Positions 21,591 to 64,000 of a stretch of DNA of 64,000 nucleotides are shown one piece after another. The notes beneath the pieces were generated by a model. The model had not been told where the DNA came from. It ran no database searches and saw nothing but the letters and a program-made list of their open reading frames with translations. Origin of the DNA: Prevotellaceae bacterium (GTDB lineage Bacteria > Bacteroidota > Bacteroidia > Bacteroidales > UBA932); assembly GCA_031266015.1 (NCBI GenBank), contig JAISBU010000004.1, forward strand, positions 62,001 through 126,000, read 5' to 3'. The position numbers and the translations under genes were made by a program. Within the stretch, counting starts at the first letter, position 1. The number at the start of each line of letters is the position of its first letter.

Positions 21591-21775
21591 TGAGGCTGTT
21601 TTGCGTAAATATTTAAGATAATAATTTCTTACAAAGCATGTTTTGATTATCAATGAGAAAGAAACTATATTGTTTGATAATGTACTTGCATTATGTTAAA
21701 TAACTTAGCTAAAAATTTATTTCTTTTTCGAAGGGTAGGGGATTTTTTAATTCAATTTTTTATCGGGCGGCAAAA

Positions 21776-21826
21776 AGCACACTCTTTTGCAAGTTTTGGT
21801 TTGCGCGAATTGCAAATGTGTGTGCT
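21776..21826. repeat. hairpin-forming element at left edge of the island
   Basis: agcacac...ttgcaa (21776-21792) pairs imperfectly with ttgcaa...gtgtgct (21810-21826), 14 of 17 positions. Its core, 21782-21807, matches 28165-28190 at the right edge in direct orientation, 23 of 26 bases. Confidence 0.75.
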
Positions 21827-21838
21827 TGTGTGGTGGCT

Positions 21839-22888
21839 CTACACTTCTTCTTCGTAATAGATTTTGTAATATTTTCGTCCGTCTTTGTCAATGCCTTGCT
21901 CTATCAACTCTCTGTTTCCGTGTATGTAAATGTGAAAGTTTTTGTCCAATTTTAAAACACTTTTAAAAACTCTCGCTTGTTTCTTTACTGCTTGTGCCGA
22001 AATTTCAAAATTGTCAGCCAATTCAATTTCGTTTTCTTCTCTAAATGTTTCGTCAAACTGACGGAAAGATTTAATTACATTTTTGTCGCCAAAAACTTCT
22101 TTTTCAAATTCTTGCTTGTCAAAAGTTTCGTGTTTTTTGAAATAATCAACTGAACGATTTAACAAATCAATCTTGTCGGTTTTTGTTACTTCAAATTCTT
22201 CGTCAAGTTGTTTGGTTACAAAATTTTTGGTAATACCTAAAAAGTCTTTTGTGAAATGATACTCATTCTTGGTCGGCTTAATATTTAAGAAAAAATCTTT
22301 CCAATACTGTGCTTCCATTGATTTATTAGACTTATCAATGACACAAATTTTATAGCCTTTTTCTTTTTCTGTATTAAAAATCAAACAACCTTTATCAAGT
22401 TTTTCAACGTTTATGCCGTCTTCATAATTCAAAACGAATTTGTTTGATTTCTTGTTTAAATTTAAAAATGGTTGTCTGTTCTCTGATTTGAAAATACCTA
22501 ACACATTTACCAATTTGTCATCAATACTGACATTTGAAAATGTAGCCACAAACAAATCTCCTGACTTTATTTGTGGGTGTAATGATATTTCGTACAAATG
22601 TTTGGCGATGCTTTTGCTTAACTCTTGAACTTTGTCGTTTTCTGAAAATATATCGGTTGAAAACTGATACAAAGGATTTAGTTTAAAATCATCATTAGAA
22701 AATGTAAAAGTATAGTATTCTTCCATTTCCGAAAACGGATACAAAAAATACTTAATCAACAATTCCCGTAATCTTAAATCGTCAGTTTCAAGTAGAGAAT
22801 TTGACAGGATAATGTCATCGCCATTGGTTTTATTTCCAACCTGATGTGCAATTACACTTTTTATATTGCAATTTGTAAAGTCTAACAT
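21839..22888 (-). CDS. nucleoid-associated protein, NA37 family (second, Bacteroidota-type)
   Basis: This 349-residue protein resembles the Bacteroidota branch of the NA37/NdpA (YejK) nucleoid-associated family. Supporting features are the N-terminal VIAHQVGNKTNGDDIILSN, the central GDLFVATFSNVSIDDKLVNV and LGIFKSENRQPFL segments, KGCLIFNTEKEKGYKICVID, and the C-terminal FHIYIHGNRELIEQGIDKDG with KYYKIYYEEE. NA37 proteins bind the nucleoid in E. coli, yet their biochemical role is unclear. The gene is the last of the six-gene island operon, 3 bp after the RelA/SpoT gene. Low GC like its neighbours in the island. It is only distantly similar to the other NA37 protein here. Confidence 0.8.
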   Translation of the reverse strand: MLDFTNCNIKSVIAHQVGNKTNGDDIILSNSLLETDDLRLRELLIKYFLYPFSEMEEYYTFTFSNDDFKLNPLYQFSTDIFSENDKVQELSKSIAKHLYEISLHPQIKSGDLFVATFSNVSIDDKLVNVLGIFKSENRQPFLNLNKKSNKFVLNYEDGINVEKLDKGCLIFNTEKEKGYKICVIDKSNKSMEAQYWKDFFLNIKPTKNEYHFTKDFLGITKNFVTKQLDEEFEVTKTDKIDLLNRSVDYFKKHETFDKQEFEKEVFGDKNVIKSFRQFDETFREENEIELADNFEISAQAVKKQARVFKSVLKLDKNFHIYIHGNRELIEQGIDKDGRKYYKIYYEEEV

Positions 22889-22891
22889 ATT

Positions 22892-23875
22892 CTATAATTC
22901 GTTTCCCCAAAGGGTTTTTATTTGTTCAAGGTCGTCATCGTCAAAATCATTTGCCCAATTATCTTTTATAGTGAAAGGGTGATTTTGCAACATATACCAA
23001 ACTAAAAATATCTCTGGTTGTGAAAGAGATAAAATCTCGTAAAATCGGTTTCTATTATCATTGTAAATACGTTGTATTTTTTGTTCATTGGTAACAATAA
23101 AACTTTCAATACTATTGATTAGTTGTTGCTTTGCATTATCGTCAGTTTCAAAATAATTAAGTATTGTATTTATATCTAATAATGATATTTCTCTATCATA
23201 ATCGGTTTTCGCAAACTTGTAAAATTTACCCTCAAGTTTTCTTAACAAAGTATAGGTAATATTTTCTTGATGCTCTTTCAATGCCTTATTTACGCTTGAA
23301 AATTCGTCATCAGCAAGTTCATATAGAGAAAGTAAGCGATACACTTTTCTTTTTAGTTTGTCGGGCAAATCTGTTTCTCTTTTATACGATAGAGAATGGG
23401 CAGTGTTAGACCAAGCGTGTTGATTTAAAGTTCGTACTTGAATTTCAAAAATAAAATCTTCAAAAGTCGCGTGTCGTTTAAACTCTGTTACTGTACATTT
23501 TATTTTAGCATCATAATGATTAGAAACATAATCAAGTCTATTGAAATCCAAATTGTCTTTTTTATGTTCTACACTAATAACAACAAAATTTTCATTTATG
23601 AATTTTTCTACAATGCCTAAATCTTCTTGAAAAGTGCAGATAATCCGAATGCCTAACTTATCTTTTAAATGCTGATATGAATACTCTTTCTCGGCTTGTT
23701 TCTTTCTTACTTTTTTGATGATGCTTACTAATTCCTTTGTTCTGTATTGGACTTCGGGCAATAGTTCATAATCCGTGATTTTGTTCTTAATAAAAGAACT
23801 TACGATTTTTCCTAAATCTTCGTATTTAGGTTGGTCGTCTTTCCACAAATCAACTATTTCCTGAACATTTGCCAT
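22892..23875 (-). CDS. RelA/SpoT-type nucleotidyltransferase
   Basis: This 327-residue protein has a stand-alone RelA/SpoT synthetase fold in residues about 35-165: YRTKELVSIIKKVRKK (substrate Arg/Lys helix), LKDKLGIRIICTF (the catalytic Asp just ahead of GIRI, near residue 70), RLDYVSNHYDAKIKC in place of the usual GYRSLH loop, and FEIQVRTLNQHAWSNTAHSLSYK (near 145). There is no HD hydrolase, TGS or ACT domain. The C-terminal 150 residues are helical and not recognised. It could make alarmones ((p)ppGpp or ppApp) or, like toxSAS/CapRel relatives, modify tRNA ends. It starts directly after the stop of the upstream NA37 gene and ends 3 bp before the next NA37 gene. Confidence 0.85.
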   Translation of the reverse strand: MANVQEIVDLWKDDQPKYEDLGKIVSSFIKNKITDYELLPEVQYRTKELVSIIKKVRKKQAEKEYSYQHLKDKLGIRIICTFQEDLGIVEKFINENFVVISVEHKKDNLDFNRLDYVSNHYDAKIKCTVTEFKRHATFEDFIFEIQVRTLNQHAWSNTAHSLSYKRETDLPDKLKRKVYRLLSLYELADDEFSSVNKALKEHQENITYTLLRKLEGKFYKFAKTDYDREISLLDINTILNYFETDDNAKQQLINSIESFIVTNEQKIQRIYNDNRNRFYEILSLSQPEIFLVWYMLQNHPFTIKDNWANDFDDDDLEQIKTLWGNEL

Positions 23876-24916
23876 TTAGCGTACACTTTTCACTTTTGAA
23901 ACAATTTCAGCCTTAGTTGTTCCGTCATTCAGAGGTTCTAATTTTACATTTTTTTCAAAACTTCCTTTTTTACCAACTATTGCAATGTCATTGGCAAATG
24001 TCATTGTTATAGTTTTAATTTTATTGTCAATGTAAGTATTGTCTTTGGGAAATTCTGACATTCTAAACTTCTTATCTTTTAGATAATTGTTGTATGTGTC
24101 TTTATCCTGTGTTTCCAAATAGTCATCGGCAAATTCTTTGGCGCTGATTTTTTGAGTGTTCTTCTGCAAATAAGAATTTAGGTCTTGTGTATATTTTGCT
24201 CGTTTAATAGGGTCATCAAAAGTTTGAATAAATGTCGTAGTGTAATCGTAAAACTTCTTCGTAGTCGTTTTAGGATTTTCAAGTGGAACACAACCCAAAA
24301 ACTTTTCAATAAACCACGTTGTTACAACTTTTTTAGTTTTAGGGTCTATCTGCAAATCAGCCGTACTTCCGTCATATTTGATTTTGAACGAAGATTTATC
24401 AACGAATAAACCAACTTTATAGATTTTTGTTTTTTTAGTAAGCATCAAATCTTTTACGTCTTTGATGTTAAATGATTTTGTTTTAGGGTCTAATTCTAAT
24501 TGTGCCCCTTCGTCTCTTTCAAGTTTTATGATAATACAAGTGTTTTTGTTGTTTATTTTTCCTGATATAATAACTAAAATTCCTGACACATTTTGTCCGT
24601 CTTGTATCTCAAATAAATACTTAGCCATCAATTTAGATTGCCCAACCAAATCATTGCCGTCAGAACTGATTATTTGGTTAATGTAAGTAGAAACAGGCGA
24701 TGTGTTGTCTGGATTATAACACACAAGTAATTCTTTATTGCTTTGCAATGATTGAACAACTTTTTCTTTAAAGAATGTTCTTAATCCGTCAGGAAGAGAA
24801 CTTTCTTGTTCGCTGTATTGCGGCTCAACTGAAAAATCTCCCTTTCTATGTTTGGGAATACTATGAACAATAATATTTTCAATCGTTATTGTGCTGGTGT
24901 CAAGTTTTGCTGCCAT
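23876..24916 (-). CDS. nucleoid-associated protein, NA37 family (first)
   Basis: This 346-residue protein carries the NA37/NdpA pattern: ITIENIIVHSIPKHRKGD at the start, PQYSEQESSLPDGLRTFFKE, LVGQSKLMAKYLFEIQDGQN, ILVIISGKINNKNTCIIIKL with ERDEGAQLELD, TKIYKVGLFVDKSSF, and TWFIEKFLGCV. The late part (SAKEFADDYLETQD) is charged and helical. It is closer to the general NA37 form than the second copy. It starts 19 bp after the methyltransferase and abuts the RelA/SpoT gene without a gap, so it is likely co-translated with it. What an NA37 protein does next to restriction genes is not known. Confidence 0.8.
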   Translation of the reverse strand: MAAKLDTSTITIENIIVHSIPKHRKGDFSVEPQYSEQESSLPDGLRTFFKEKVVQSLQSNKELLVCYNPDNTSPVSTYINQIISSDGNDLVGQSKLMAKYLFEIQDGQNVSGILVIISGKINNKNTCIIIKLERDEGAQLELDPKTKSFNIKDVKDLMLTKKTKIYKVGLFVDKSSFKIKYDGSTADLQIDPKTKKVVTTWFIEKFLGCVPLENPKTTTKKFYDYTTTFIQTFDDPIKRAKYTQDLNSYLQKNTQKISAKEFADDYLETQDKDTYNNYLKDKKFRMSEFPKDNTYIDNKIKTITMTFANDIAIVGKKGSFEKNVKLEPLNDGTTKAEIVSKVKSVR

Positions 24917-24935
24917 ATTTAATTGATGTTTTTAT

Positions 24936-26726
24936 TCAAGCATTTTGCACTTTATATTTTACTTTCTTTTCTTCAAAAAGCCGTAATTGAGGTTTTTCTG
25001 GTATCTGATAGGCTCCGTTACCGTTTATTCTGCTTTCCGTCATTCCTGTCGTTCGTGCTGCTGCTGTTACTTCGCCCCAACTGATGAAATAATCTTCAAA
25101 ATATTCAAGCGGGAATTTACTTAATTCTTTTACTTCTTCTTTTGTCGGAATATGTCCAAGCTGCTTTGAAATGTTCTTTATTTCAAGTTGCAAAACTTTT
25201 TTACTCACTTCATACTTCTGTTTCTTTAATCGCTCAACAGGGCTGTTTTTTGCTTTTGGCTTGTCATTACCCACTTTTCTGAACGGGTCAAGTCCGTCTG
25301 TTAATTCAATATGTCGTTGAGTAGTTATATTATGGTAATACTCTGAAAGTTCAATCCCCACATATTTTCTGTTTAGTTGTTGTGCTGTCAAAGTCGTTGT
25401 TCCTGCTCCGTTGAATGGGTCTAAAACAAATTCGCCTTCGTTTGTGAAAAGGGAAATTAAACGATACATAAACATTGGCGGAAGTTGACAAGGGTGGTCA
25501 ACCCTGCGACTATTATGTTTTAAACGATGAACGTCATACCAAACATTTGACACAAACTCGCTATCCTCAATTTTTAAGCATTTGCGTTTTGTCATACAAT
25601 TTTGTCGTATGCAGTAATTTTCTTTAAGCGTATTGTTTGCTTGTTGCTCTAATATTGAATTTGTGTTTCTTTCAATCGCAGGCAACGTTCTTGGTTTTCC
25701 TTTGCTGAAACAAAGAATGGAATAATGTGCAGGCATTATCATTCTAACAGGCATTGATAACCCTTCCCAAACAATCCAATCCTGATAATCTAAAATCGTA
25801 TTCAGATGCTTGAAATGCCTGATACACCATTGCGGAATATTTAAAACCGCTAATGTTCTGCCCGGTTTTAAAACTCTCGCCAATTCGCTCAACCATTGGT
25901 CGCACCAATCAAAGTATTCCTGAATATCAATGCCGTCATTCCAACTTTCGTATTTCTTTTTCAAGTTGTATGGCGGGTCTGCAAAACAAAAATCAATACT
26001 GTCGTCAGGAATTGCTTTTAGTTGTTCAATACAATCGCCATTCAACAAAACAGAATTGTCGGAATAGAAATTTTCCGAAACGGAAAATTTCAGAAATGTA
26101 TGTTTTTTATTTAGCGGTTTGTAAAACGCTCTTTGGTCGTAAACATTAAGTTGTTTGTATTCGGAAACACCAAACAAATCAGCCAAACGATTTTCAATTT
26201 CTTGCGGATATTCGTCAAAGTTTACAGTTATATCACGCCAAACGTCCGACATTAAAGTTCCAAATTCGTGATACAAATGTTTTTTTCCGCCATAATCTTT
26301 TGTTGTCTTATCGCAACAAGGGCAATATGTATAGCCAATGCGGGTTTTAGTGTGTTTTAAACTTTGCTTGTATTTGGTAAATACAAGCAAAGCCGAATGT
26401 TCCTCTGTCAAATATTCTTCGTGAACGATTGGATTTTCAAGCTTTACAGCAATCCAAAGTTTCAAATGAATGTCATTACTTAGCTGTGAACAAAAATCGG
26501 TTGCAAAAATTGGCGAAGCCAAAACCGCTATTATAGCGTTCTTGTCGGCTGAATGAAAAAATTTATTTAGTTCTAAATACAATTTCTCTTTGCGAGGAAC
26601 TGCTTCAAGAGATTGGTAATAGGGGAGAATGATAAATTCTACATTTTCCGAAACGGATTTTGTTTCGGAAAATTTTCCGTCAATCTTTTCGACCTTTAAC
26701 CGTGTAGCATTTTCGCTTTGGTGCAT
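24936..26726 (-). CDS. DNA methyltransferase, beta-class, with decayed N-terminal copy
   Basis: This 596-residue protein contains a complete amino-methyltransferase (N6-adenine or N4-cytosine) in residues about 225-460. Motif IV, ADPPYNLKKKYESWND (DPPY at 250), precedes motif I, FVLDPFNGAGTTTLTAQQL (near 436), the beta-class order. Residues 30-200 look like a degenerate second domain: ALLVFTKYKQ and SDVWRDI (near 161) echo SILCFSKGKPR and SNVWYDV (near 394) of the catalytic half, but no DPPY or motif I is seen; CPCC at 135-138 suggests a metal site. The C-terminal 100 residues (GHIPTKEEVKELSKFPLEY) resemble an HNH-associated DNA-binding repeat. It lies 3 bp after the endonuclease gene and should protect host DNA. 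Confidence 0.88.
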   Translation of the reverse strand: MHQSENATRLKVEKIDGKFSETKSVSENVEFIILPYYQSLEAVPRKEKLYLELNKFFHSADKNAIIAVLASPIFATDFCSQLSNDIHLKLWIAVKLENPIVHEEYLTEEHSALLVFTKYKQSLKHTKTRIGYTYCPCCDKTTKDYGGKKHLYHEFGTLMSDVWRDITVNFDEYPQEIENRLADLFGVSEYKQLNVYDQRAFYKPLNKKHTFLKFSVSENFYSDNSVLLNGDCIEQLKAIPDDSIDFCFADPPYNLKKKYESWNDGIDIQEYFDWCDQWLSELARVLKPGRTLAVLNIPQWCIRHFKHLNTILDYQDWIVWEGLSMPVRMIMPAHYSILCFSKGKPRTLPAIERNTNSILEQQANNTLKENYCIRQNCMTKRKCLKIEDSEFVSNVWYDVHRLKHNSRRVDHPCQLPPMFMYRLISLFTNEGEFVLDPFNGAGTTTLTAQQLNRKYVGIELSEYYHNITTQRHIELTDGLDPFRKVGNDKPKAKNSPVERLKKQKYEVSKKVLQLEIKNISKQLGHIPTKEEVKELSKFPLEYFEDYFISWGEVTAAARTTGMTESRINGNGAYQIPEKPQLRLFEEKKVKYKVQNA

Positions 26727-26729
26727 AAC

Positions 26730-27743
26730 TTATTTGTCTAAGGTTAATAAGAATTTAGACAGCTTTTCAAGTTCGCTGTCTTTGAAAGTAACTGTGCAAT
26801 CGCTGAATTGGCAAATAGCTTTTAGTGCAGAACTTCTCTCGAAATTTCCTGCACCGTCAATGATGTAAGCGATTTTATGCCCTGCTTTTTTGAGTTGATT
26901 TTGTCTGTCTTGTGCTTGACCTGCTTTACGTTCTATTGTGCTGTTAGTCGTAACCTGAAAACTTACTTCAATGGCACAATATTTTCCTTTAGGCGATTTG
27001 GCAACAATATCGTAAGAAAGCGGTGTTCGTTGATTTTGGCTTATGTTCGGAATTTGCTTTTTCCTGAAATCCCACTTTGGAAGTCGTTCCTGTAAAAAAT
27101 TAACTACATATTTTTGAGCAAGGTTGCCTAATGAATTTGCTGTTGCACCGCCTGTAATTCGGCTAACCCAAATGTAGCGTTGCCTTACAAAAGTGTCTAA
27201 TTCTTTTTTGTGTCCGATAAGTGTCCCGATGTTACATTTTTCTAAAATATCATTGGGAATATTGTTGGCAGTAGAGGAACCTCCAAACAAAATTAAGTTG
27301 ATAATATCTTCAATAACAAGTGTAAGATTTTCAACTTTTGAAAGTCCGACACCATCAACTTTTAAGTGTGTATTATTCCAAGTTTTTTTGCCTGAAAGAG
27401 TTTGAAATTCGTAGTCATAATTTTTCCCATTCCAAGAAAAATCCATTGTGTTATTCTCAAACACTTTTGGAAGTTCTGTTTTAAATCTCATCAATTTCTC
27501 TCCGCCAATATCGGAAAGTACCATAAGGTGTTTCAAGAAAAGGTTTGCAGAAAGTTGTTTTGAATTGGCTAAAACTTTTTTCCAAGCGAAAGGTTCTGCG
27601 TCTGCAATGTTTAGCAAGCTGATAAACTTATCCTGTGTTTCAATCAGTTTTGGAATAATGCTAGAATTGCGTTCCATTTCGGCAATTCTTTCAGGCCAAA
27701 ACTTTAATGCATTTACTTCTAAATCTTCTATTTTTCTTGTCAT
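26730..27743 (-). CDS. type II restriction endonuclease (PD-(D/E)XK-like)
   Basis: I read this 337-residue protein as the restriction partner of the adjacent methyltransferase. A nuclease core is visible near the C-terminus: PLSYDIVAKSP (D245), then CAIEVSFQVTTNSTIERKAG (E259, S261, Q263), then GHKIAYIIDGAGNFERSSAL. The D-x13-E spacing with a non-Lys third residue fits a PD-(D/E)XK variant, and the arrangement IEVxF, then a strand ending IDGxG, recalls the DpnII/MboI group. The N-terminal 200 residues are not recognised and probably carry DNA recognition. Its ATG overlaps the HTH gene's stop (ATGA). Recognition sequence cannot be read from here. Confidence 0.75.
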   Translation of the reverse strand: MTRKIEDLEVNALKFWPERIAEMERNSSIIPKLIETQDKFISLLNIADAEPFAWKKVLANSKQLSANLFLKHLMVLSDIGGEKLMRFKTELPKVFENNTMDFSWNGKNYDYEFQTLSGKKTWNNTHLKVDGVGLSKVENLTLVIEDIINLILFGGSSTANNIPNDILEKCNIGTLIGHKKELDTFVRQRYIWVSRITGGATANSLGNLAQKYVVNFLQERLPKWDFRKKQIPNISQNQRTPLSYDIVAKSPKGKYCAIEVSFQVTTNSTIERKAGQAQDRQNQLKKAGHKIAYIIDGAGNFERSSALKAICQFSDCTVTFKDSELEKLSKFLLTLDK

Positions 27744-28072
27744 TTGCTGTTCTTAGTTAAGTATTTTATTTTTTCTTCTGCCACTTTCAAAATTTCAATT
27801 CCGTTTTCTTCTTCAAGAAGTTGATAGGTGATTTTGTCACTTAAATATTTAATTTTTAACTCTGCTTTATCAATATTAAATATCTTAGATATTCCTTCAA
27901 TAATTTGCTCGTTAGCATTTCGCTCATTCTTTTCTATTTTGCTTAGGGTAGAAGTGTCAATGTCTAATGCAGCAGCGATTTTCCTCAATGGAAGATTAAC
28001 ATTTTCCCGAAGTGTTCTGATATATTCTCCAAATGATATTTTTTCTACTGTTGACATTTTCTGCTTTGGCAT
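27740..28072 (-). CDS. XRE-family HTH, controller-protein-like
   Basis: This 110-residue protein has an N-terminal Cro/CI-type HTH: FGEYIRTLRENVNLPLRKIA, then AALDIDTSTLSKIEKNERNA, ending in IFNIDKAELKIKYLSDKI and a short Lys-rich tail. Small HTH proteins directly ahead of a type II endonuclease are often C proteins that delay endonuclease expression until methylation is complete. A promoter with TAATTTTG at 28081-28088 predicts transcription starting near 28075, so the start is either MPKQK (28072, nearly leaderless) or MSTVEK (28057). The longer frame runs into the flanking palindrome and is rejected. First gene of the six-gene operon. Confidence 0.8.
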   Translation of the reverse strand: MPKQKMSTVEKISFGEYIRTLRENVNLPLRKIAAALDIDTSTLSKIEKNERNANEQIIEGISKIFNIDKAELKIKYLSDKITYQLLEEENGIEILKVAEEKIKYLTKNSK

Positions 28073-28080
28073 TATTTGTC

Positions 28081-28111
28081 CAAAATTAGCAAACTGTTTT
28101 TGTTTACCAAA
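28081..28111 (-). promoter_or_regulatory. promoter of the island operon
   Basis: On the minus strand TTTG (28108-28111), exactly 19 bp of spacer, and TAATTTTG (28081-28088) match the Bacteroidota vegetative promoter (TTTG, 19-21 bp, TAnnTTTG). It lies 9 bp ahead of the first HTH codon. Confidence 0.65.
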
Positions 28112-28160
28112 ATTTTTAGTAGGATTTTGTTGTTGTCTGGCTGGAAGCGTTAGCAAAATT

Positions 28161-28220
28161 GCAGCTCTTTTGCAAGCTTTGGCTTGTGCGTGGGCTTCGT
28201 GCGGCTTGCAAAAGAGCTGC
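28161..28220. repeat. 16-bp perfect hairpin at right edge of the island
   Basis: gcagctcttttgcaag (28161-28176) pairs exactly with 28205-28220. Its core, 28165-28190, is the direct-repeat partner of 21782-21807 at the left edge. It lies upstream of the operon promoter. Confidence 0.85.
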
Positions 28221-28491
28221 AAGTGCGTGGGAAAAAGAAATAAATTTTTGCAGAGCCTGTAGCGTGGGTGCAGCGGCTTTACACATAATGACTAATTATA
28301 GGAAAAAATATCGGGCTGGCTTCGTGCGGTTGGTGTACGTGGGCTTTTATTTAGGCGAAGCCCGCAGCGAAAATGAACGTTGGGAATTGTGCGGTTGCAT
28401 TTTGCCCTATAATTTATATTATATTAAATAGGATAACTCGTAGAACCCCAAGCTGTAACGATTTGGCGTGTAAAAAAAATGTCAAAGAACA
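28221..28491. other. gene-free interval with a second long hairpin
   Basis: aattatagg at 28293-28301 and cctataatt at about 28406-28414 bracket a GC-richer stretch with further short palindromes (ggcttttatttaggcgaagcc). No gene is seen; the frames that cross it are repetitive. It may be part of the island's boundary. Confidence 0.5.
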
Positions 28492-56922: not shown

Positions 56923-57557
56923 TTGGTAAAATATGTACTTTTGCGATACAAATGTGATACAAAATTTACCGCCAAGAAAGCCCGCTTCTCCCTCGTTTAC
57001 AACCACCGCGTCAGGAAGCTGGCGGCCACTGAAAAAGCCCCCATTCACGTGGAGGTGTACTTCTCGCGCACGGTGCGCAGCCACGTGGATACCAACGTGG
57101 CGGTGGAGTTCTGCTACTGGAACGCCAGGGCAAAGGTACTCAAAAAAACTCACCCGAACTACATCGTGCTGTACCAAATGCTCAAGCAGACGGTGGACAG
57201 CCTTGAAAAGTTTGAGCTGTCGCTGATTAACCGGGGGCGGGAGGGCAAGGGGAAGCGCGTAGTCCATTGTAGAGAAGTACCTAAGGCTGTACCCCGACCA
57301 GCCCACCGTTTTCCCGCCCGAAACCCGCAGCGCGCTGGACTACTACCTCAAGCAGGTGGCCAAAAAGGTGGGCGTTGAGCGCAATCTCTTTTTTCACATG
57401 CGCGGCACACCTGCGAGTGCTGGCGGACATCAGCGCCAACCCCTGCCTGATAATGGACATTATAGGGCATAATTCTAATAAAACCTCCATGATTTACATC
57501 CACAGCTTGAGCGAGCGGGTGAAGAGGCAGCTGCAAAGCTTGACGTGGAAGTGGTAG
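56923..57557 (+). pseudogene. broken tyrosine recombinase (phage-type integrase)
   Basis: The first frame (56923-57378) begins with an integrase arm-binding segment: FTAKKARFSLVYNHRVRKLA and EKAPIHVEVYFSR, then HPNYIVLYQMLKQTVDSL. About position 57268 the reading switches to another frame, with KKVGVERNLFFHM, and the last frame (57375-57557) ends with the conserved catalytic stretch ISANPCLIMDIIGHNSNKTS and MIYIHSLSERVKRQLQSL, the GH and Tyr parts of the C-terminal domain. The intermediate Arg/HxxR region is disrupted. At least two frameshifts exist, so I read it as dead. It marks an old mobile element next to the surface-protein cluster. Confidence 0.85.
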
Positions 57558-57972
57558 GGTTACGGTAGCGATTTTTTGCCCAACCACTACGAAAAGCAAG
57601 TTCCACATTGCCTCTCCATCGCGAAAAGCAGCCCATTTTTGAAAATGAGCTGCTTTTACCTTGCTCAAGGGCTGCCTGCGCCTATGTTTCGCTATACGCC
57701 GCCTGCTTTTCCCTACCCACCTTGTAAAAGCAACCACCCTAAAGTCTGCTGAACAGCATGATGCTGAAATACTGTTTGAAAATCAGCTGTTTAGTGGATT
57801 AAGCATCAGCTAAAGTGTTAAATATCACGGCAAAAAGGTAGGCGCTATTGCTATAACGACCGCCAATAGCTACTTTTATCATCTGGAAGCACGCTAAAAT
57901 TACGGCGTAAAGCAGCTAAATGTCGTAGGTAGCGCTACACTTCAAGTGTCGTAAACGTGTAAACTTAGGGCT
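57558..57972. other. gene-free interval after the integrase remnant
   Basis: Contains a hairpin (aaaagcagc... at 57624-57657 with its complement) and little else. It lies between the broken integrase and the first surface-protein gene. Confidence 0.5.
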
Positions 57973-59571
57973 ATGCGGCACAAAAAACTTTTCCTCATTC
58001 TCCTTTGCCTGTCAGCGGCAACTCCTACCCCTGCGCAGTGTCCGCGCAGCATTACCCTGCTGGGCGGCGCTACCGTTTGTGCGCTTGGCAGCAGCGGACA
58101 GGTGCGGCTGGCTACTGCTGTGGGCGTTCGGGTGGAGTGCTGGAGCTACAGCAGCAACGCCCTGTTCAGCGAGCAGACGGACGACTACGCCGCCAAAACT
58201 TCCTACTACCCGTACAGCAACCTTACGCAGCCGCGCTACTTTCGCGTGCGCTACTACGACAGCGTGTGCAACGTTACGGCGACCAGCGGCGTAGCTGAAA
58301 TCAAGGTAGATGCCGTTTCGGTGGCGGATAGCGTAGGCGGCGCTGCCGAGCACTGCTTGGGGCAGGCCAACGGAACGCTGACGCTATCGGGCAGCACGAG
58401 CAGCGTACAGGGTTGGCAACAGCGCGAGGAAAATGAAGCATGGCAGAATATTGCGCAAACCAGCACCAGCTTGAGCTACGCTAACCTAACCAGCAGCACC
58501 TACTACCGTAGCGTAGTAAAGAATGGCGTATGCCCTGCTGCTACCACCGACAGCGTACTTGTTACCGTCAACCCCCTTCCACAAGCACAATTCACGGTTC
58601 CCGACGTATGCCTGAGCGAGGCAAGCCGCTTTACTGACGCTTCTACGGTGAGCAGCGGCTACCTCGTGAGCCACGAGTGGAACTTCGGCAACGGCGCCAC
58701 CTCCACCGCCACCAACCCGCAGCACACCTACCTCGACCCCATTACCTACGCGGTAACGCTCAAGGTTACCAGCAGCAAGGGCTGCACGCACCAGGTGCAG
58801 CGGGAAACGAAAGTACACGTGCTTCCAAAAGCTGACTTTGCGGCCAGCCACGTGTGCGTGGGCAAGCCTAGCGTATTTACCAGCCTGTCCAGCGTGGCTT
58901 CGGGTGAGAATTTGCTGCACACGTGGAGGTTTAACGATGAAGCTACCGCCAACCTCAAAAATCCCACCCACACCTTTGCCGCTGACGGTAGCCAGCAAGT
59001 GTGGCTATGGGTGCAGAGCGAGCTGGGCGGGTGTAAAGATTCCGTAGAAAAAACGGTGGGCGTGTATCCGCTGCCGTTAGCCTACGCCGGGCGCGACACC
59101 ACCGTAGAGCTAGGGTACAGCGTGGAGTTAAGCGCCAGTGGCGGTATTTTTTACAGCTGGCTAACCGCGCCTGGCATAGCCACCACTGACGTTGGCAACC
59201 CCGTAGTAGCGCCCACCACCGCCACGCAGTACGTGGTGCGGGTGGAAGACGAGCACGGCTGCGTAGCCTACGACAGCGTAACGGTGCGCGTAAGGGACAC
59301 GCAGCGCGTAACACCCTCCACCATTATTACCCCTGACGGCAACGGCGAGAACGATACGTGGGTGGTACGCAACATTGAACATTACCCTAACGCACGGGTG
59401 CGCGTGCTGGACGCGCGGGGCGCGGTGGTGCTCGACCGCACCGGCTACAAAAACGACTGGGACGTTCGCAACAGCAACGGCGATACGCTGCCCGGCGGCA
59501 CCTACTACTACATCATTACGTTTGGCGATACGGGAAAGCTATACAAAGGAGCGATTACCGTGCTAAGGTAA
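57973..59571 (+). CDS. PKD-domain surface protein with CHU_C (T9SS type B) C-terminus
   Basis: This 532-residue protein has a signal peptide (MRHKKLFLILLCLSAATPTPAQ) and several beta modules. Residues 25-200 hold Ig-like repeats with paired Cys; two PKD domains begin at about 201 (AQFTVPDVCLSEASRFTDAS, with SHEWNFGNGA) and 286 (ADFAASHVCVGKPSVFTSLS); another Ig-like part follows at 366; residues 446-532 are the gliding-motility-associated C-terminal domain (TIITPDGNGENDTWVVRNIE, then GGTYYYIITFGDTGKLYKGA). The last signals T9SS export of the type B kind, and the protein should be held at the cell surface. Likely adhesin or scaffold. First in a run of four same-strand genes. Confidence 0.85.
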   Translation: MRHKKLFLILLCLSAATPTPAQCPRSITLLGGATVCALGSSGQVRLATAVGVRVECWSYSSNALFSEQTDDYAAKTSYYPYSNLTQPRYFRVRYYDSVCNVTATSGVAEIKVDAVSVADSVGGAAEHCLGQANGTLTLSGSTSSVQGWQQREENEAWQNIAQTSTSLSYANLTSSTYYRSVVKNGVCPAATTDSVLVTVNPLPQAQFTVPDVCLSEASRFTDASTVSSGYLVSHEWNFGNGATSTATNPQHTYLDPITYAVTLKVTSSKGCTHQVQRETKVHVLPKADFAASHVCVGKPSVFTSLSSVASGENLLHTWRFNDEATANLKNPTHTFAADGSQQVWLWVQSELGGCKDSVEKTVGVYPLPLAYAGRDTTVELGYSVELSASGGIFYSWLTAPGIATTDVGNPVVAPTTATQYVVRVEDEHGCVAYDSVTVRVRDTQRVTPSTIITPDGNGENDTWVVRNIEHYPNARVRVLDARGAVVLDRTGYKNDWDVRNSNGDTLPGGTYYYIITFGDTGKLYKGAITVLR

Positions 59572-59597
59572 GGCTTAACCCGTAAACTTAAAAAGTT

Positions 59598-60500
59598 ATG
59601 AAAATGAAATGCTTGACTTGTAAAATTGTTGTGGCGGTGGTGGTGCTGCTGGTTTCCGCCCTATGCCACAGCGCCTACGCCCAGGTGGGCATTAACACCA
59701 CCACCCCCGACAGCACTGCGCTGCTGGATATTCACTTTAGCGGCACAGGGCAGGTCGGGGTTTTATTTCCAAATGTGGTTGATAGCCTACGAAAAGCGAA
59801 GAAGCCCAACGTAAGCGATGGCATGGTGGTGTTTGACCGCAAGCGGAAAATGTTCTACTACTACGATGACCACTTGAAGGAGTGGGTAGCCATGACCCCC
59901 TTCGGAGCGGTACATGACGACAACGAGCTCATCGACATTCGTCCACAGAACAGCGAGGTGAACACCCTAAACATGAGCCTTGGGCTGCCCGCTGGCGAAA
60001 CTGCCACCGCTAAGCTGGACGTGAACGGCAGCGTGAGGGTGCGGAAAAACATGAAGGTAGAGGGCAGCGACACCATACAGCAAAGCTTAGCTGTAAACGG
60101 CGCAGCTACGCTAAAGCAAAGCTTACAAGTTAACGGAAATACAACGCTACAGCAGAACTTGCAGGTAGCTGGTAGCACAACGCTGCAAAATCCAACCACT
60201 ATAAATAGCACGCTGACGGTAAACAGCAGCATTAACGCTAAAAACGATACGGTAGCGGCTAAAACATTTGTGGGCTATGGCATAACCCCTGTGGGCGGAA
60301 TCATGATGTGGTCGGGGAGTACAGCCGACTTTGACGCTTCGGGAAATGGGAAAGCCAGCACAAAAATGGACGGTTGGGCGTTGTGCAACGGCGCTAATGG
60401 AACACCTAACCTGAAAGGGCGGTTTATAGTAGGCTACAATCCTGACGAGGTAGACTACAATGAGATAAAAAAACTGGAGGTGCAAAACAAGTATCCCTAA
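59598..60500 (+). CDS. collar-domain fibre-like surface protein, 5' part of shifted frame
   Basis: This 300-codon frame starts with a signal peptide (MKMKCLTCKIVVAVVVLLVSALCHSAYAQ region) and a head resembling Bacteroidota head-of-fibre modules (GINTTTPDSTALLDIHFSGT, MVVFDRKRKMFYYYDDHLKE). Residues 150-215 are short repeats (LQVNGNTTLQQNLQVAGSTT) typical of a beta-helical stalk. At 230-290 a phage-collar segment begins: VGGIMMWSGSTADFDASGNG, WALCNGANGTPNLKGRFIVG. It then hits a stop in IKKLEVQNKYP. The collar normally goes on to a QMPRHSH and PPYYVLAF ending, which lies in another frame (60512-60724); see that entry. The break falls on an A7 run at 60467-60473. Confidence 0.8.
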   Translation: MKMKCLTCKIVVAVVVLLVSALCHSAYAQVGINTTTPDSTALLDIHFSGTGQVGVLFPNVVDSLRKAKKPNVSDGMVVFDRKRKMFYYYDDHLKEWVAMTPFGAVHDDNELIDIRPQNSEVNTLNMSLGLPAGETATAKLDVNGSVRVRKNMKVEGSDTIQQSLAVNGAATLKQSLQVNGNTTLQQNLQVAGSTTLQNPTTINSTLTVNSSINAKNDTVAAKTFVGYGITPVGGIMMWSGSTADFDASGNGKASTKMDGWALCNGANGTPNLKGRFIVGYNPDEVDYNEIKKLEVQNKYP

Positions 60501-60511
60501 CAGGTTACCAA

Positions 60512-60724
60512 ATGCCAAGACACTCTCACTTTTCATTAAAAGTAAATGGTGATGATGATGCATCGGGAAATTACTATTTAAGCAGTACAAGAACGCTTGA
60601 TAGCCCTGATGGAGTAACGGAACCTAAAGGCACTGAAGGAAGAACAGGTTGGTCTGGCGACGGCCAGCCCCACGAAAACCGCCCACCCTACTATGTTTTG
60701 GCCTTTATCATGCGCGTACAGTAA
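60512..60724 (+). CDS. collar-domain continuation, -1 frame after A7 run
   Basis: The frame contains QMPRHSHFSLKVNGDDDASG-type sequence and ends PHENRPPYYVLAFIMRVQ, the canonical end of a phage-tail collar domain. Reading at A7 (60467-60473, codons ata aaa aaa ctg) shifted by -1 gives EIKKTGGAKQVSLTGYQMPR, joining the two halves without a stop. So the gene is 59598-60724 when the shift occurs. Either the sequence lost one A, the gene is decaying, or slippage is used. Without the shift this part has no start codon of its own before MPRHSHF. Confidence 0.75.
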   Translation: MPRHSHFSLKVNGDDDASGNYYLSSTRTLDSPDGVTEPKGTEGRTGWSGDGQPHENRPPYYVLAFIMRVQ

Positions 60725-60732
60725 GTTTTACT

Positions 60733-62751
60733 ATGAATACAAAACCCTTTTTCATACCACTACTTTTTGCCCTTTGCAGCCTTTCCGTCCAGGCCCAGCA
60801 GCGGGTGGCGGTAGGCATGGGCGGCAGCGCCGCTGCCCCTCAGGTCATGCTTAAATTCGTTGACGAGAAGGTCATTTTCCCCGAAGGCGTTACCGTTTAC
60901 CGCAGCGCTGACGGACAGCAGTGGCAGAGGCTGACGGATAAGCCGCTGAAAATGGGCAGCTACACGCCCACGCAGGCGGAGCTCAAGGCGGACAGCCTGC
61001 TACCGCAGTACCTCGACATGGCCGCCTCGCTGAAGAGCAGCCCACAAGAGGGCGCAGCGCTGCTGGTGGCCATGCTCAAGGCCTTGGAGAGCCTGCCCTT
61101 TGCCCGGTACCTGGGCATTGCATACATAGACGGACAGGTAGAAAATGGACAAACCTACTATTATAAAGTTTGCCGCATGGTAAAAGGCGCAGAGCAGCAG
61201 CTGGAGGTTACCGCTCCCGTAACCATGGCTCCCTTTACCCCCACTGCCCCGCCCGACAGCGTGAAGCTAAACGCCAAAGACGGCGTGGTAACCGTAACGT
61301 GGAAGCCCAACCCCCTGCGCTTCTGGGGGGTCAACGTGTACCGCAGTTCCTCGGTGGATACCGCCTACCGGCAGGTCAATGAGCTGCCCCTAGTGGCCTC
61401 CACCCGCCCGGGGCCTGACGGCAGGGAGGGCTACGCCTCTGAATTTTACGCCGATGCCACCGTTAACAACGCCATGGTGTACCGCTACCGCATAGCGGGT
61501 ATTGATTTTTTCGGCAGACCAACGCAGCTGAGCGAGCCCATAGAGGCGCGCCCACTGGACAAAACGCCGCCCCTCTTCCCCGACAAGGTGCAGGGTGAGG
61601 TAGACAAGCTGCTGGTCAACCTCACGTGGGACAACCATTTGCAGAGCGATGACATGTGGGGCTACTACGTGTACCGCGGCGCCTCGTACTACCAGCCCTT
61701 TGCGCGGGTGAGCGCGCTGCTGCCCGCCACAGCTAACGCCTACACCGATACCGTTGCGGAGTCCGGCAGCTACTACTACTACGTAGCCGCCGTTGACTTT
61801 GCCGAGAACGAGGGCAAGTCCACCAAAATATCGGTGGAAGTTCCCGATGTTTTTCCGCCTGCCAAGCCACGTGTAGCCAGCGTGGTGGCGGATTCAGGGG
61901 TCATCACCGTGCGCTGGCACCGCAACACCGAAAAGGACTTAGCGGGCTACCAGCTGTACCGCGCCGCCAACGGCGCAGGCTCCTCCGCCTACGTACCCAT
62001 CAACCCCAAGCCGCTGACCGATACCGTCTTTACGGACAAGCTGCCCTTTGTGGCGAAAAACTTTTTCTACTACCGCCTCCACGCCATAGACCATGCCCAC
62101 AACCGCAGCGAGCCTGCCGATGTGGTGTACGCGCGTATGCCCGATGTGGTCGCCCCGCAGCAGCCTTTTATCAAGGAAGTAAAACAGGAGGGCAGCACGT
62201 TAGTAGTAGAGTGGCTCCCCAACACCGATGACGACCTGATGGGCTACCACGTGCGCCGCTTTGAGGCTGACAAAGAGCCTGCCAGCGCAGCGCAGGTGAA
62301 CGCCTCGCTGCTGGGCAGGCAAGCGTTCCGCTTCACCGACCGCTTCCTCTCGCCCAACGTGCTGTACAAGTACTACCTTACCGCCGTGGACAGCAGCGGC
62401 AACGCCTCCGTTCCATCGGGCTACTACGGCGCGCAACTATCCAGGGACGAGGGGGAAAGCGTAGGCGTGGGGCAGCTCAAGGCGAAGTACAACGCCCGAA
62501 AAAAGGCGGTGGAGCTGACGTGGGAGATAACTGAGGACAACGCAGCGGGCTACAGGGGCTGCGTGGTGTACCGCCGCGCAGCCGATGGAGCATTTACGCC
62601 GCTCAACGGGCTGGAAAAAATCTTGAAATATAAGGACAGCTCCGTAACCCCCGGCGAGCGGTACGGCTACCAAATACGCACCTACACGGAGGGCGGACAC
62701 AACGCCCGCTCGCTGACGGTGGAGGTGGTAGTGCCGGAAAAGAAAAAGTAG
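60733..62751 (+). CDS. secreted FN3-repeat protein
   Basis: This 672-residue protein has a signal peptide (MNTKPFFIPLLFALCSLSVQAQ) and no T9SS sorting domain. It is made of five or more fibronectin type III-like repeats, each with an AxxVTWxxN-like strand and YxVYRxxxxxxxY pair: TVTWKPNPLRFWGVNVYRSS, LTWDNHLQSDDMWGYYVYRG, TVRWHRNTEKDLAGYQLYRA, VEWLPNTDDDLMGYHVRRFE and LTWEITEDNAAGYRGCVVYR. Such proteins are typical of Bacteroidota surface clusters, where they may scaffold fibres. I start at MNTKPFF because it gives the signal peptide. It begins 9 bp after the collar gene. Confidence 0.85.
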   Translation: MNTKPFFIPLLFALCSLSVQAQQRVAVGMGGSAAAPQVMLKFVDEKVIFPEGVTVYRSADGQQWQRLTDKPLKMGSYTPTQAELKADSLLPQYLDMAASLKSSPQEGAALLVAMLKALESLPFARYLGIAYIDGQVENGQTYYYKVCRMVKGAEQQLEVTAPVTMAPFTPTAPPDSVKLNAKDGVVTVTWKPNPLRFWGVNVYRSSSVDTAYRQVNELPLVASTRPGPDGREGYASEFYADATVNNAMVYRYRIAGIDFFGRPTQLSEPIEARPLDKTPPLFPDKVQGEVDKLLVNLTWDNHLQSDDMWGYYVYRGASYYQPFARVSALLPATANAYTDTVAESGSYYYYVAAVDFAENEGKSTKISVEVPDVFPPAKPRVASVVADSGVITVRWHRNTEKDLAGYQLYRAANGAGSSAYVPINPKPLTDTVFTDKLPFVAKNFFYYRLHAIDHAHNRSEPADVVYARMPDVVAPQQPFIKEVKQEGSTLVVEWLPNTDDDLMGYHVRRFEADKEPASAAQVNASLLGRQAFRFTDRFLSPNVLYKYYLTAVDSSGNASVPSGYYGAQLSRDEGESVGVGQLKAKYNARKKAVELTWEITEDNAAGYRGCVVYRRAADGAFTPLNGLEKILKYKDSSVTPGERYGYQIRTYTEGGHNARSLTVEVVVPEKKK

Positions 62752-62772
62752 ACTATTTTTTTGCTAAACAAA

Positions 62773-64000
62773 ATGCGTAATTTACTACACGTAGCAAGGC
62801 GCTTAGCCATAGCGCTAACCTTAACAGCTGTCTACACGCTCACCGCTGTAGCGCAAACCTCCACCATGCTGTACAGCAACGGTACTGTTTTTATCACCAA
62901 AAATGCTACCCTGTTTGTAAAGGGGGACGTGGTAAACAACAGCGCCGACAACCTCAACCTGCATAACGTCGGCAAGCTGTACCTCACGGGCGACCTGGTT
63001 AACCAGGCAGGCGTGCTGTTTCAAAGTTCGTCCAGCGGCACGGACACCATTAGCGAGCAGCGGGCAGACGGAAGCGGTATTGTAGACACCATCTCGCATA
63101 AGGTAGCCGCAGGAGCCGTTTACTTTGTGGGATGCGACACGCAGCGCATTATACAGCGCACCCCCTCCAAGGGCATACTGTTCAACGATATTTACCACCG
63201 CAGCCACCTGTCCATAGCGGGCGGTAAGCTTAACGTGGTGGGCGGCGTTCACTTCAATGGCACGCACCACATTTTTAACGGGGGCAACGATATTTGCCTG
63301 TTTGAGGTAGACAGCGTTAACCATGACTTGTGCCGCGGCTACCTGAGCGGCGAGCGCAACAGCTCGCGCCTGTACGGCAGCGGCAAGCTGCGCGCCATTG
63401 CCAACACCGATAGCCTCTGGTGGCAGCTGGATAGCTTGGGTCTTAGCGGGCTGCCGAAGGAGGCAAAATCTATCCGTGTGGTGCGCGGCGACAGCGTTAT
63501 TGCCGATGCCGCCGACGGCAGCCTTGCTCGGTACTACGACATCATCCCTACGTTCAGCATTGACAGCGTGAACAGCGTTAACCTTACCATAAAATACTTC
63601 CCCAGCCATTACGTAGGGCGAGAGAGCATAAACCAATCCGCCTTTGCGCTGTTTTCCATCAACCCCAACGACCCCAGCCCCACCCGCTACTACCAGCCCA
63701 TAGCCGGCACGGTAGATTTGGCTAAGCAAACCGTTACGGGAAAAAACGTTACTATTCTCCGAGATGTTGTCCTTCCCCAAGATACCGCTACCCGCTTTAC
63801 CATTGCCAGCACGGACTGCAAGAACCCGCCGCAGGTTGATTTGGGCAGCGATGTTGACGTATGCTACGATAAAACGGTTACGCTCAACGCTACACCTACC
63901 AACTACGATAACGCGGGGCGCGGACTTTACGCCTACACCTGGAGCAACGGCGCAAGGGACAGCGCGCAAACGCTGGACTCACTCACGCATAAGCCCAACC
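62773..64000 (+). CDS. large surface protein, N-terminal part (cut by window end)
   Basis: Frame open from the ATG at 62773 to the window end (409 codons). The start gives MRNLLHVARRLAIALTLTAV, a signal peptide ending AVAQ. The next 150 residues (NATLFVKGDVVNNSADNLNL, then NVGKLYLTGDLVNQAG) are adhesin-like repeats, and the last region (VDLGSDVDVCYDKTVTLNAT) starts an Ig-like module with the VCYD motif seen before CHU_C domains. A T9SS signal may follow outside the window. It begins 22 bp after the FN3 gene and continues the surface cluster. Confidence 0.75.
   Translation, partial: MRNLLHVARRLAIALTLTAVYTLTAVAQTSTMLYSNGTVFITKNATLFVKGDVVNNSADNLNLHNVGKLYLTGDLVNQAGVLFQSSSSGTDTISEQRADGSGIVDTISHKVAAGAVYFVGCDTQRIIQRTPSKGILFNDIYHRSHLSIAGGKLNVVGGVHFNGTHHIFNGGNDICLFEVDSVNHDLCRGYLSGERNSSRLYGSGKLRAIANTDSLWWQLDSLGLSGLPKEAKSIRVVRGDSVIADAADGSLARYYDIIPTFSIDSVNSVNLTIKYFPSHYVGRESINQSAFALFSINPNDPSPTRYYQPIAGTVDLAKQTVTGKNVTILRDVVLPQDTATRFTIASTDCKNPPQVDLGSDVDVCYDKTVTLNATPTNYDNAGRGLYAYTWSNGARDSAQTLDSLTHKPN

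Follow-up and report, generated by a model that had tools for sequence, protein, structure and literature searches.

A NA37–RelA/SpoT gene pair beside a BanI-like restriction-modification system in an AT-rich island of a Prevotellaceae bacterium

Genes and composition of the island

A six-gene island was analyzed in a 64,000-nucleotide stretch of DNA from a Prevotellaceae bacterium (GenBank assembly GCA_031266015.1, contig JAISBU010000004.1, positions 62,001–126,000 of the forward strand; hereafter, the window). The island (21839–28072) is encoded on the minus strand and joins a restriction-modification (R-M) system to a triplet in which a RelA/SpoT-type protein (RSH) is flanked by two members of the NA37 family, NA37a upstream and NA37b downstream. 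What is conserved is the NA37a–RSH pair rather than the triplet or all six genes. This pair is widespread but apparently undescribed and, judging from sequence and gene context, probably acts in conflicts of phages or mobile elements with their hosts.

NA37a (23876–24916), the upstream partner of RSH, is a homologue of nucleoid proteins (PF04245, 6.2e-19; phrog_1974, 3.2e-41), and RSH (22892–23875; PF04607 RelA_SpoT, 4.7e-17; phrog_32462, 6.6e-19 over residues 6–320) comprises a RelQ/RelP-like alarmone-synthetase domain (residues 1–205) and a family-specific helical C-terminal domain (residues 206–327). Both PHROG families, matched over nearly their full length, are of unknown function. NA37b (21839–22888; PF04245, 5.4e-35) is the third gene of the Bacteroidota version of the module. 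Upstream of the triplet lie, in order, genes for an XRE-type, controller-like helix-turn-helix (HTH) protein (27740–28072; Pfam HTH_3, 1.4e-9; PADLOC Control_protein, 1.9e-7), a BanI-like type II restriction endonuclease (26730–27743; PF24447 RE_BanI, 7.7e-129; PADLOC REase_II, 2e-84) and an N6/N4-type DNA methyltransferase (24936–26726; PF01555 N6_N4_Mtase, 9e-46), the last with a weak C-terminal HNH_repeat match. The HTH gene starts at an ATG at 28072, and its mechanical open reading frame can be extended to a TTG at 28222. The HTH and endonuclease genes overlap by 4 bp, and the successive gaps thereafter are 3 bp (endonuclease–methyltransferase), 19 bp (methyltransferase–NA37a), 0 bp (NA37a–RSH) and 3 bp (RSH–NA37b). 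An earlier description made from the sequence alone (the original prediction) had listed these six minus-strand genes with their gaps and families, and the reading-frame coordinates and Pfam matches agree with it. Its account of an AT-rich island unlike both flanks is also borne out (33% vs 46% GC): the GC fraction is 0.329 in the island and 0.456 in the remainder of bases 1–57000, within which no second segment of the island's length is as GC-poor. From 57000 to 64000, the GC content climbs from approximately 46% to 51–61%, unlike the remaining window.

A candidate Bacteroidota-type promoter, TTTG-N19-TAATTTTG (28081–28111, minus strand), was identified as an exact pattern match directly 5′ of the HTH ATG. 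The "one clear promoter" of the original prediction is plausible on this basis, but the pattern is not rare by chance, with 3 occurrences in the window against 1.4 expected; a sigma-70 scan returned 34 sites, compared with 25.8 ± 4.9 in shuffled sequence. The island is bounded by a perfect 19-bp inverted repeat that had gone unmentioned, AAAAATTTATTTCTTTTTC, positioned at the left end on the plus strand (21711–21729) and in inverted form at the right end on the minus strand (28231–28249), and absent elsewhere in the 2.5-Mb genome, as expected for a mobile segment. The two ends (21711–21807 and 28159–28249) also share a related 26-bp stretch (88%), and the right end contains a 19-bp perfect hairpin (28159–28177/28204–28222). 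Within the island, neither an integrase nor a transposase gene was seen. An empty site was sought across the truA–corA junction, and no clean case was obtained because the neighboring genes differ among relatives.

The NA37a–RSH pair and its third genes

RSH homologues were collected by a profile search of 393 genomes of the order and by a profile scan of 84,980 species genomes, from which 80 loci were fetched; a single-sequence scan of genome contigs gave no match, and a profile including divergent pairs was needed. Because a single active-site motif was used to draw the 80 loci, they give no frequencies among all RSHs, but the all-or-none split within them is independent of that motif: NA37a is positioned immediately upstream in 54 of the 54 testable full-length RSH loci and in none of 25 loci encoding short synthetases, which consist of the synthetase domain only. 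One locus (L120), whose contig begins approximately 90 bases before RSH, was left out of this count. The RSH profile also matched 56 IMG/VR viral contigs, 52 of which carry the pair (52/52 of those testable); two of the remaining four start at a contig edge and two carry short synthetases. The two genes are inherited together, as the pairwise distances of NA37a and RSH correlate (r = 0.92; 0.90 without the Bacteroidota clade that carries the triplet; p = 1e-4) and the RSH tree places the full-length RSHs in a single group, except for the contig-edge case. Stop–start overlaps of 1–8 bp between NA37a and RSH are typical, larger values being due to upstream alternative starts. The pair was found in Bacteroidota, Pseudomonadota, Actinomycetota, Bacillota and other phyla. 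Among the 393 genomes of the order, only one besides that of the window (G048, the same locus as L072) carries all three genes of the triplet (81, 68 and 71% identical to those of the window), and two (G331 and G381) contain the pair only, in one case directly behind a prokaryotic Argonaute (pAgo) gene. At L060, a pAgo gene cut by the contig end (3–1430) lies directly upstream of the pair, and in a Gallionellaceae locus (L123, 7989–8975) RSH is split into two reading frames and NA37a is intact. No description of the pair was found in literature searches that covered few subscription papers and neither Burroughs 2015 nor the toxSAS paper of 2020.

The RSH model (pLDDT 90.8) best matches RelQ/RelP structures over residues 1–205 (nearest folds, 5dec and 5ded), and the protein contains a synthetase domain and no hydrolase domain. 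Its catalytic motifs align with those of YjbM/RelQ, and 44 sequences without exception share R45, K47, S51, D72, R77, H120, E144, Q146, R148, H160, Y164 and K165; because the full synthetase active site is retained, enzymatic activity is expected, with GDP/GTP, ADP/ATP or tRNA as possible acceptors. Profile scores are 73–85 bits for RelQ/RelP and 42 bits for CapRel, which superposes poorly on RSH (structure-match ranks 42–43) and matches its sequence only at profile positions 29–166. Residues 206–327 form a conserved all-helical domain (Q286, W307 and G324 are conserved) with no match in the PDB, and this domain would be the natural candidate for contact with NA37a. The NA37a model (pLDDT 84.5) indicates a YejK fold, YejK (9be2) being its sole PDB match below 0.001 (E = 7e-10), at a TM-score of only 0.40. 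NA37a and NA37b score 69 and 121.8 bits, respectively, against the NA37 Pfam model (gathering cut-off, 24.6); NA37a is basic (isoelectric point 9.0), whereas NA37b (5.4) and RSH (5.5) are acidic. In a tree of NA37 proteins, which was read without the L070 row because that row was in the wrong frame, NA37a is separated from stand-alone NA37 proteins by a long branch (2.3 changes per column, support 97).

The third gene is exchangeable. NA37b follows the pair in the window and in seven of its eight nearest relatives (L070, L071, L072 and L074–L077), the other being Flavobacterium soli (L073), in which the pair stands without it. The triplet, the recurrence of which had been proposed as a check, is therefore present at 8 distinct loci including the window. 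In the NA37 tree, NA37b belongs to the stand-alone branch, far from NA37a, and appears to be an add-on to the pair from a different NA37 lineage; six NA37b sequences form one clade (support 100) and that of L077 groups with stand-alone NA37 proteins (support 100), so this slot was filled at least twice. In Klebsiella, Escherichia coli, Vibrio, Pseudoalteromonas and Oceanospirillum, a protein with two transmembrane (TM) segments that matches SLATT/DUF4231, with weak to moderate Pfam scores, is encoded upstream of the pair. In Streptomyces, a gene for a 3–4TM protein overlaps the RSH stop codon in 7/7 chromosomal loci, although a simple hydropathy rule gives one of these proteins only two segments. 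At four Streptomyces loci (L087, L104, L121 and L129), the overlapping protein directly 3′ of RSH has approximately 209 amino acids and 3–4 predicted TM segments; no Pfam match was obtained for the two scanned and no PDB match for the one scanned. No TM gene was found beside the pair in the window, and a third gene, whether for a membrane protein or otherwise, is absent from most pairs.

Genomic contexts of the pair

Plasmids carrying the pair were found in Ochrobactrum, Klebsiella and Streptomyces, and at twelve IMG/VR loci the neighboring genes match phage families for replication initiation, Q-like antitermination, DnaB, endolysin, repressor and portal proteins. Two RSH queries of the isolated phage genomes in INPHARED gave no convincing full-length pair; since the pair was found in IMG/VR contigs only, most of its viral-contig carriers are probably prophages. 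The pair is rare in E. coli (4 of 5,426 genomes at the DNA-level sensitivity used), where it is part of a compact three-gene operon. Its islands there adjoin tRNA-Thr and include an integrase gene, disrupted in one strain. In two such tRNA-Thr/proA islands (L152, 9145–11719; L150, 7785–10335), the operon has the order SLATT or DUF4231–NA37–RSH, and DprA-like and RecQ-like genes lie near that of L152. Defence genes adjoin the pair or the triplet at single loci (type IIG restriction enzyme, pAgo and GmrSD).

The association with R-M genes is local and not conserved. The endonuclease and methyltransferase genes, adjacent in the window, also stand together in four further genomes of the order, where they are 57–80% identical to those of the window (methyltransferases, 57–76%), and in 0/4 of these BanI-like loci was NA37 or RSH present in the fetched flanks, with distant linkage possible at two loci where the contigs are short. 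A restriction enzyme lies within operon distance at three of the nine loci of the triplet clade: in the window, at L058/L072, where the triplet is directly behind a type IIG enzyme, and at L075, where it directly precedes a GmrSD-type enzyme. Since the BanI-like R-M system thus occurs without the pair, the six genes were ruled out as a conserved unit.

Interpretation and relation to known systems

With a probability of approximately one half, the island consists of two separable modules: a BanI-like R-M system and a mobile conflict module, the core of which is NA37a–RSH, with NA37a silencing RSH near DNA until a disturbance occurs. A conflict module, whether for phage defence, superinfection or competition between elements, is the best reading of the pair because the pair is constant, the active site is kept, and the genes are mobile across phyla and reside in viral contigs, plasmids and islands. 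In the mechanism that we infer, with defence as its purpose, NA37a, through its predicted YejK fold, would keep RSH silent at or near DNA, and a trigger such as phage DNA takeover or a nucleoid change would release RSH from it. The released RSH would then transfer pyrophosphate to a nucleotide, yielding a (p)ppGpp- or (p)ppApp-type alarmone that may halt growth directly or signal to the third gene, which would be the 2TM SLATT pore in gammaproteobacteria, the 3–4TM protein in Streptomyces and NA37b in the window. Aravind's group predicted that SLATT proteins act as pore-forming effectors responding to nucleotides (PMC7159879), a prediction suggesting that the product of RSH can act as a signal. 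An E. coli unit containing a YejK domain, reported to protect against phage in the DefensePredictor study (PMC13092281), also speaks for this reading.

Several observations weigh against this reading. The signaling step is not general, because most pairs lack a third gene, and the phage regulatory and replication neighbors fit a role in the phage life cycle equally well. A PADLOC scan of neighbors returned 299 model families beside pairs and 19 beside control synthetases, with no listed model matching more than two and no per-protein counts, and enrichment of defence genes near pairs is not demonstrated by these tallies. In addition, the YejK-domain unit of the DefensePredictor study may or may not be the E. 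coli SLATT–NA37–RSH operon, as the text of that study does not state the other components of the unit. It is possible, and only tentatively proposed, that NA37a–RSH represents a new class of nucleotide-signaling system for immunity or mobile-element conflict, in which a DNA-bound YejK-like gate controls an alarmone-type synthetase and the nucleotide made acts on exchangeable third components (SLATT 2TM pores, 3–4TM proteins and NA37b); prophages, plasmids and islands would have carried this system into several phyla. If so, RelA/SpoT-type enzymes in phage–host conflict would be subject to a new form of control, exerted through a nucleoid-protein partner and not through a small antitoxin; NA37 proteins, otherwise regulators of the nucleoid and topoisomerases, would gain a dedicated-partner role; and the opening of SLATT membrane effectors by alarmone-like nucleotides would become testable.

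A rather unlikely alternative is that the pair is a type II toxin–antitoxin system of the toxSAS kind, with NA37a as antitoxin and DNA-binding autoregulator and RSH as toxin, which stabilizes a mobile element and protects against phage as a by-product. The antitoxin-first gene order, the short overlaps, the carriage on plasmids and viral contigs and the synthetase without a hydrolase domain agree with this explanation, and toxSAS proteins are established toxins (PMC11782079, PMC11559606). However, the partner has approximately 346 residues and a predicted YejK fold, unlike the small pZFD, PAD1 and D27 antitoxins; the RSH profile rates RelQ/RelP well above CapRel; third genes with membrane segments are atypical of plain toxin–antitoxin pairs; and NA37 is not mentioned in the main text of two toxin–antitoxin network papers covering toxSAS.

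It is unlikely that the pair instead regulates the life of mobile elements, NA37a countering host silencing or altering DNA topology and RSH tuning host nucleotide pools for phage replication or element transfer. The replication-initiation and antitermination genes in viral contigs are in line with such a role, as are the inhibition of gyrase and Topo IV by E. coli YejK (PMC10053502) and the increased transfer of the integrative and conjugative element PAPI-1 conferred by its NA37 protein NdpA2 together with TprA (PMC8565334). Nevertheless, the pair also occurs in chromosomal islands, on plasmids and beside R-M, pAgo and SLATT genes, and NdpA2, which shares 97% identity with the chromosomally encoded NdpA, may lie outside the NA37a branch.

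The proposal that all six genes constitute a single operon built for one purpose, with the triplet as a second line of defence behind restriction, is very improbable, since the uninterrupted minus-strand run behind one candidate promoter and the restriction enzymes adjoining the triplet at L058/L072 and L075 are outweighed by the R-M system without a triplet at all four other BanI-like loci of the order and by the triplets and pairs without adjoining R-M at nearly all other loci. What stands of the original prediction is the recurrent triplet, the full synthetase active site, the mobility of the module and its position, in places, beside restriction, pAgo or SLATT genes; its link to R-M as a backup does not.

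Among known systems, the R-M part resembles type II systems of the BanI kind in its HTH–endonuclease–methyltransferase order and endonuclease family but differs in its N6/N4-class methyltransferase. M.BanI is a 5-methylcytosine enzyme, and BanI-type systems are characterized by GGYRCC specificity. The toxSAS systems (FaRel2–ATfaRel2 and the anti-phage CapRel) are likewise mobile RelA/SpoT synthetases without a hydrolase domain that keep the catalytic residues and have a two-gene or fused regulator; they are characterized by a toxin that is toxic alone and neutralized by its partner, with a tRNA or (pp)pApp product. The partner of RSH differs in being a protein of approximately 350 residues with a YejK-like fold rather than a pZFD/ATfaRel2, PAD1-Panacea or D27 antitoxin, the all-helical C-terminal domain of RSH does not match the pseudo-zinc-finger antitoxin domain of CapRel, and its synthetase domain is nearer to RelQ/RelP. 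RelQ (YjbM) and RelP (YwaC) share the fold and catalytic residues of RSH residues 1–205, but RSH has approximately 120 additional C-terminal residues, an obligate NA37 partner and an accessory mobile distribution. CBASS-like signaling through SLATT/TM effectors, as predicted by Burroughs and Aravind, is similar in that, at a subset of loci, a 2TM SLATT protein accompanies an enzyme that makes nucleotides; the pair differs in having no cyclase and, in the window and most other loci, no membrane effector. The phage-protective unit of E. coli resembles the pair in its NA37/YejK domain (PMC13092281). Finally, NA37a is related to the NA37 family (E. coli YejK, NdpA and StaR) by its score above the Pfam cut-off and the match of its model to YejK, but is set apart by its separate long branch and its tie to RSH.

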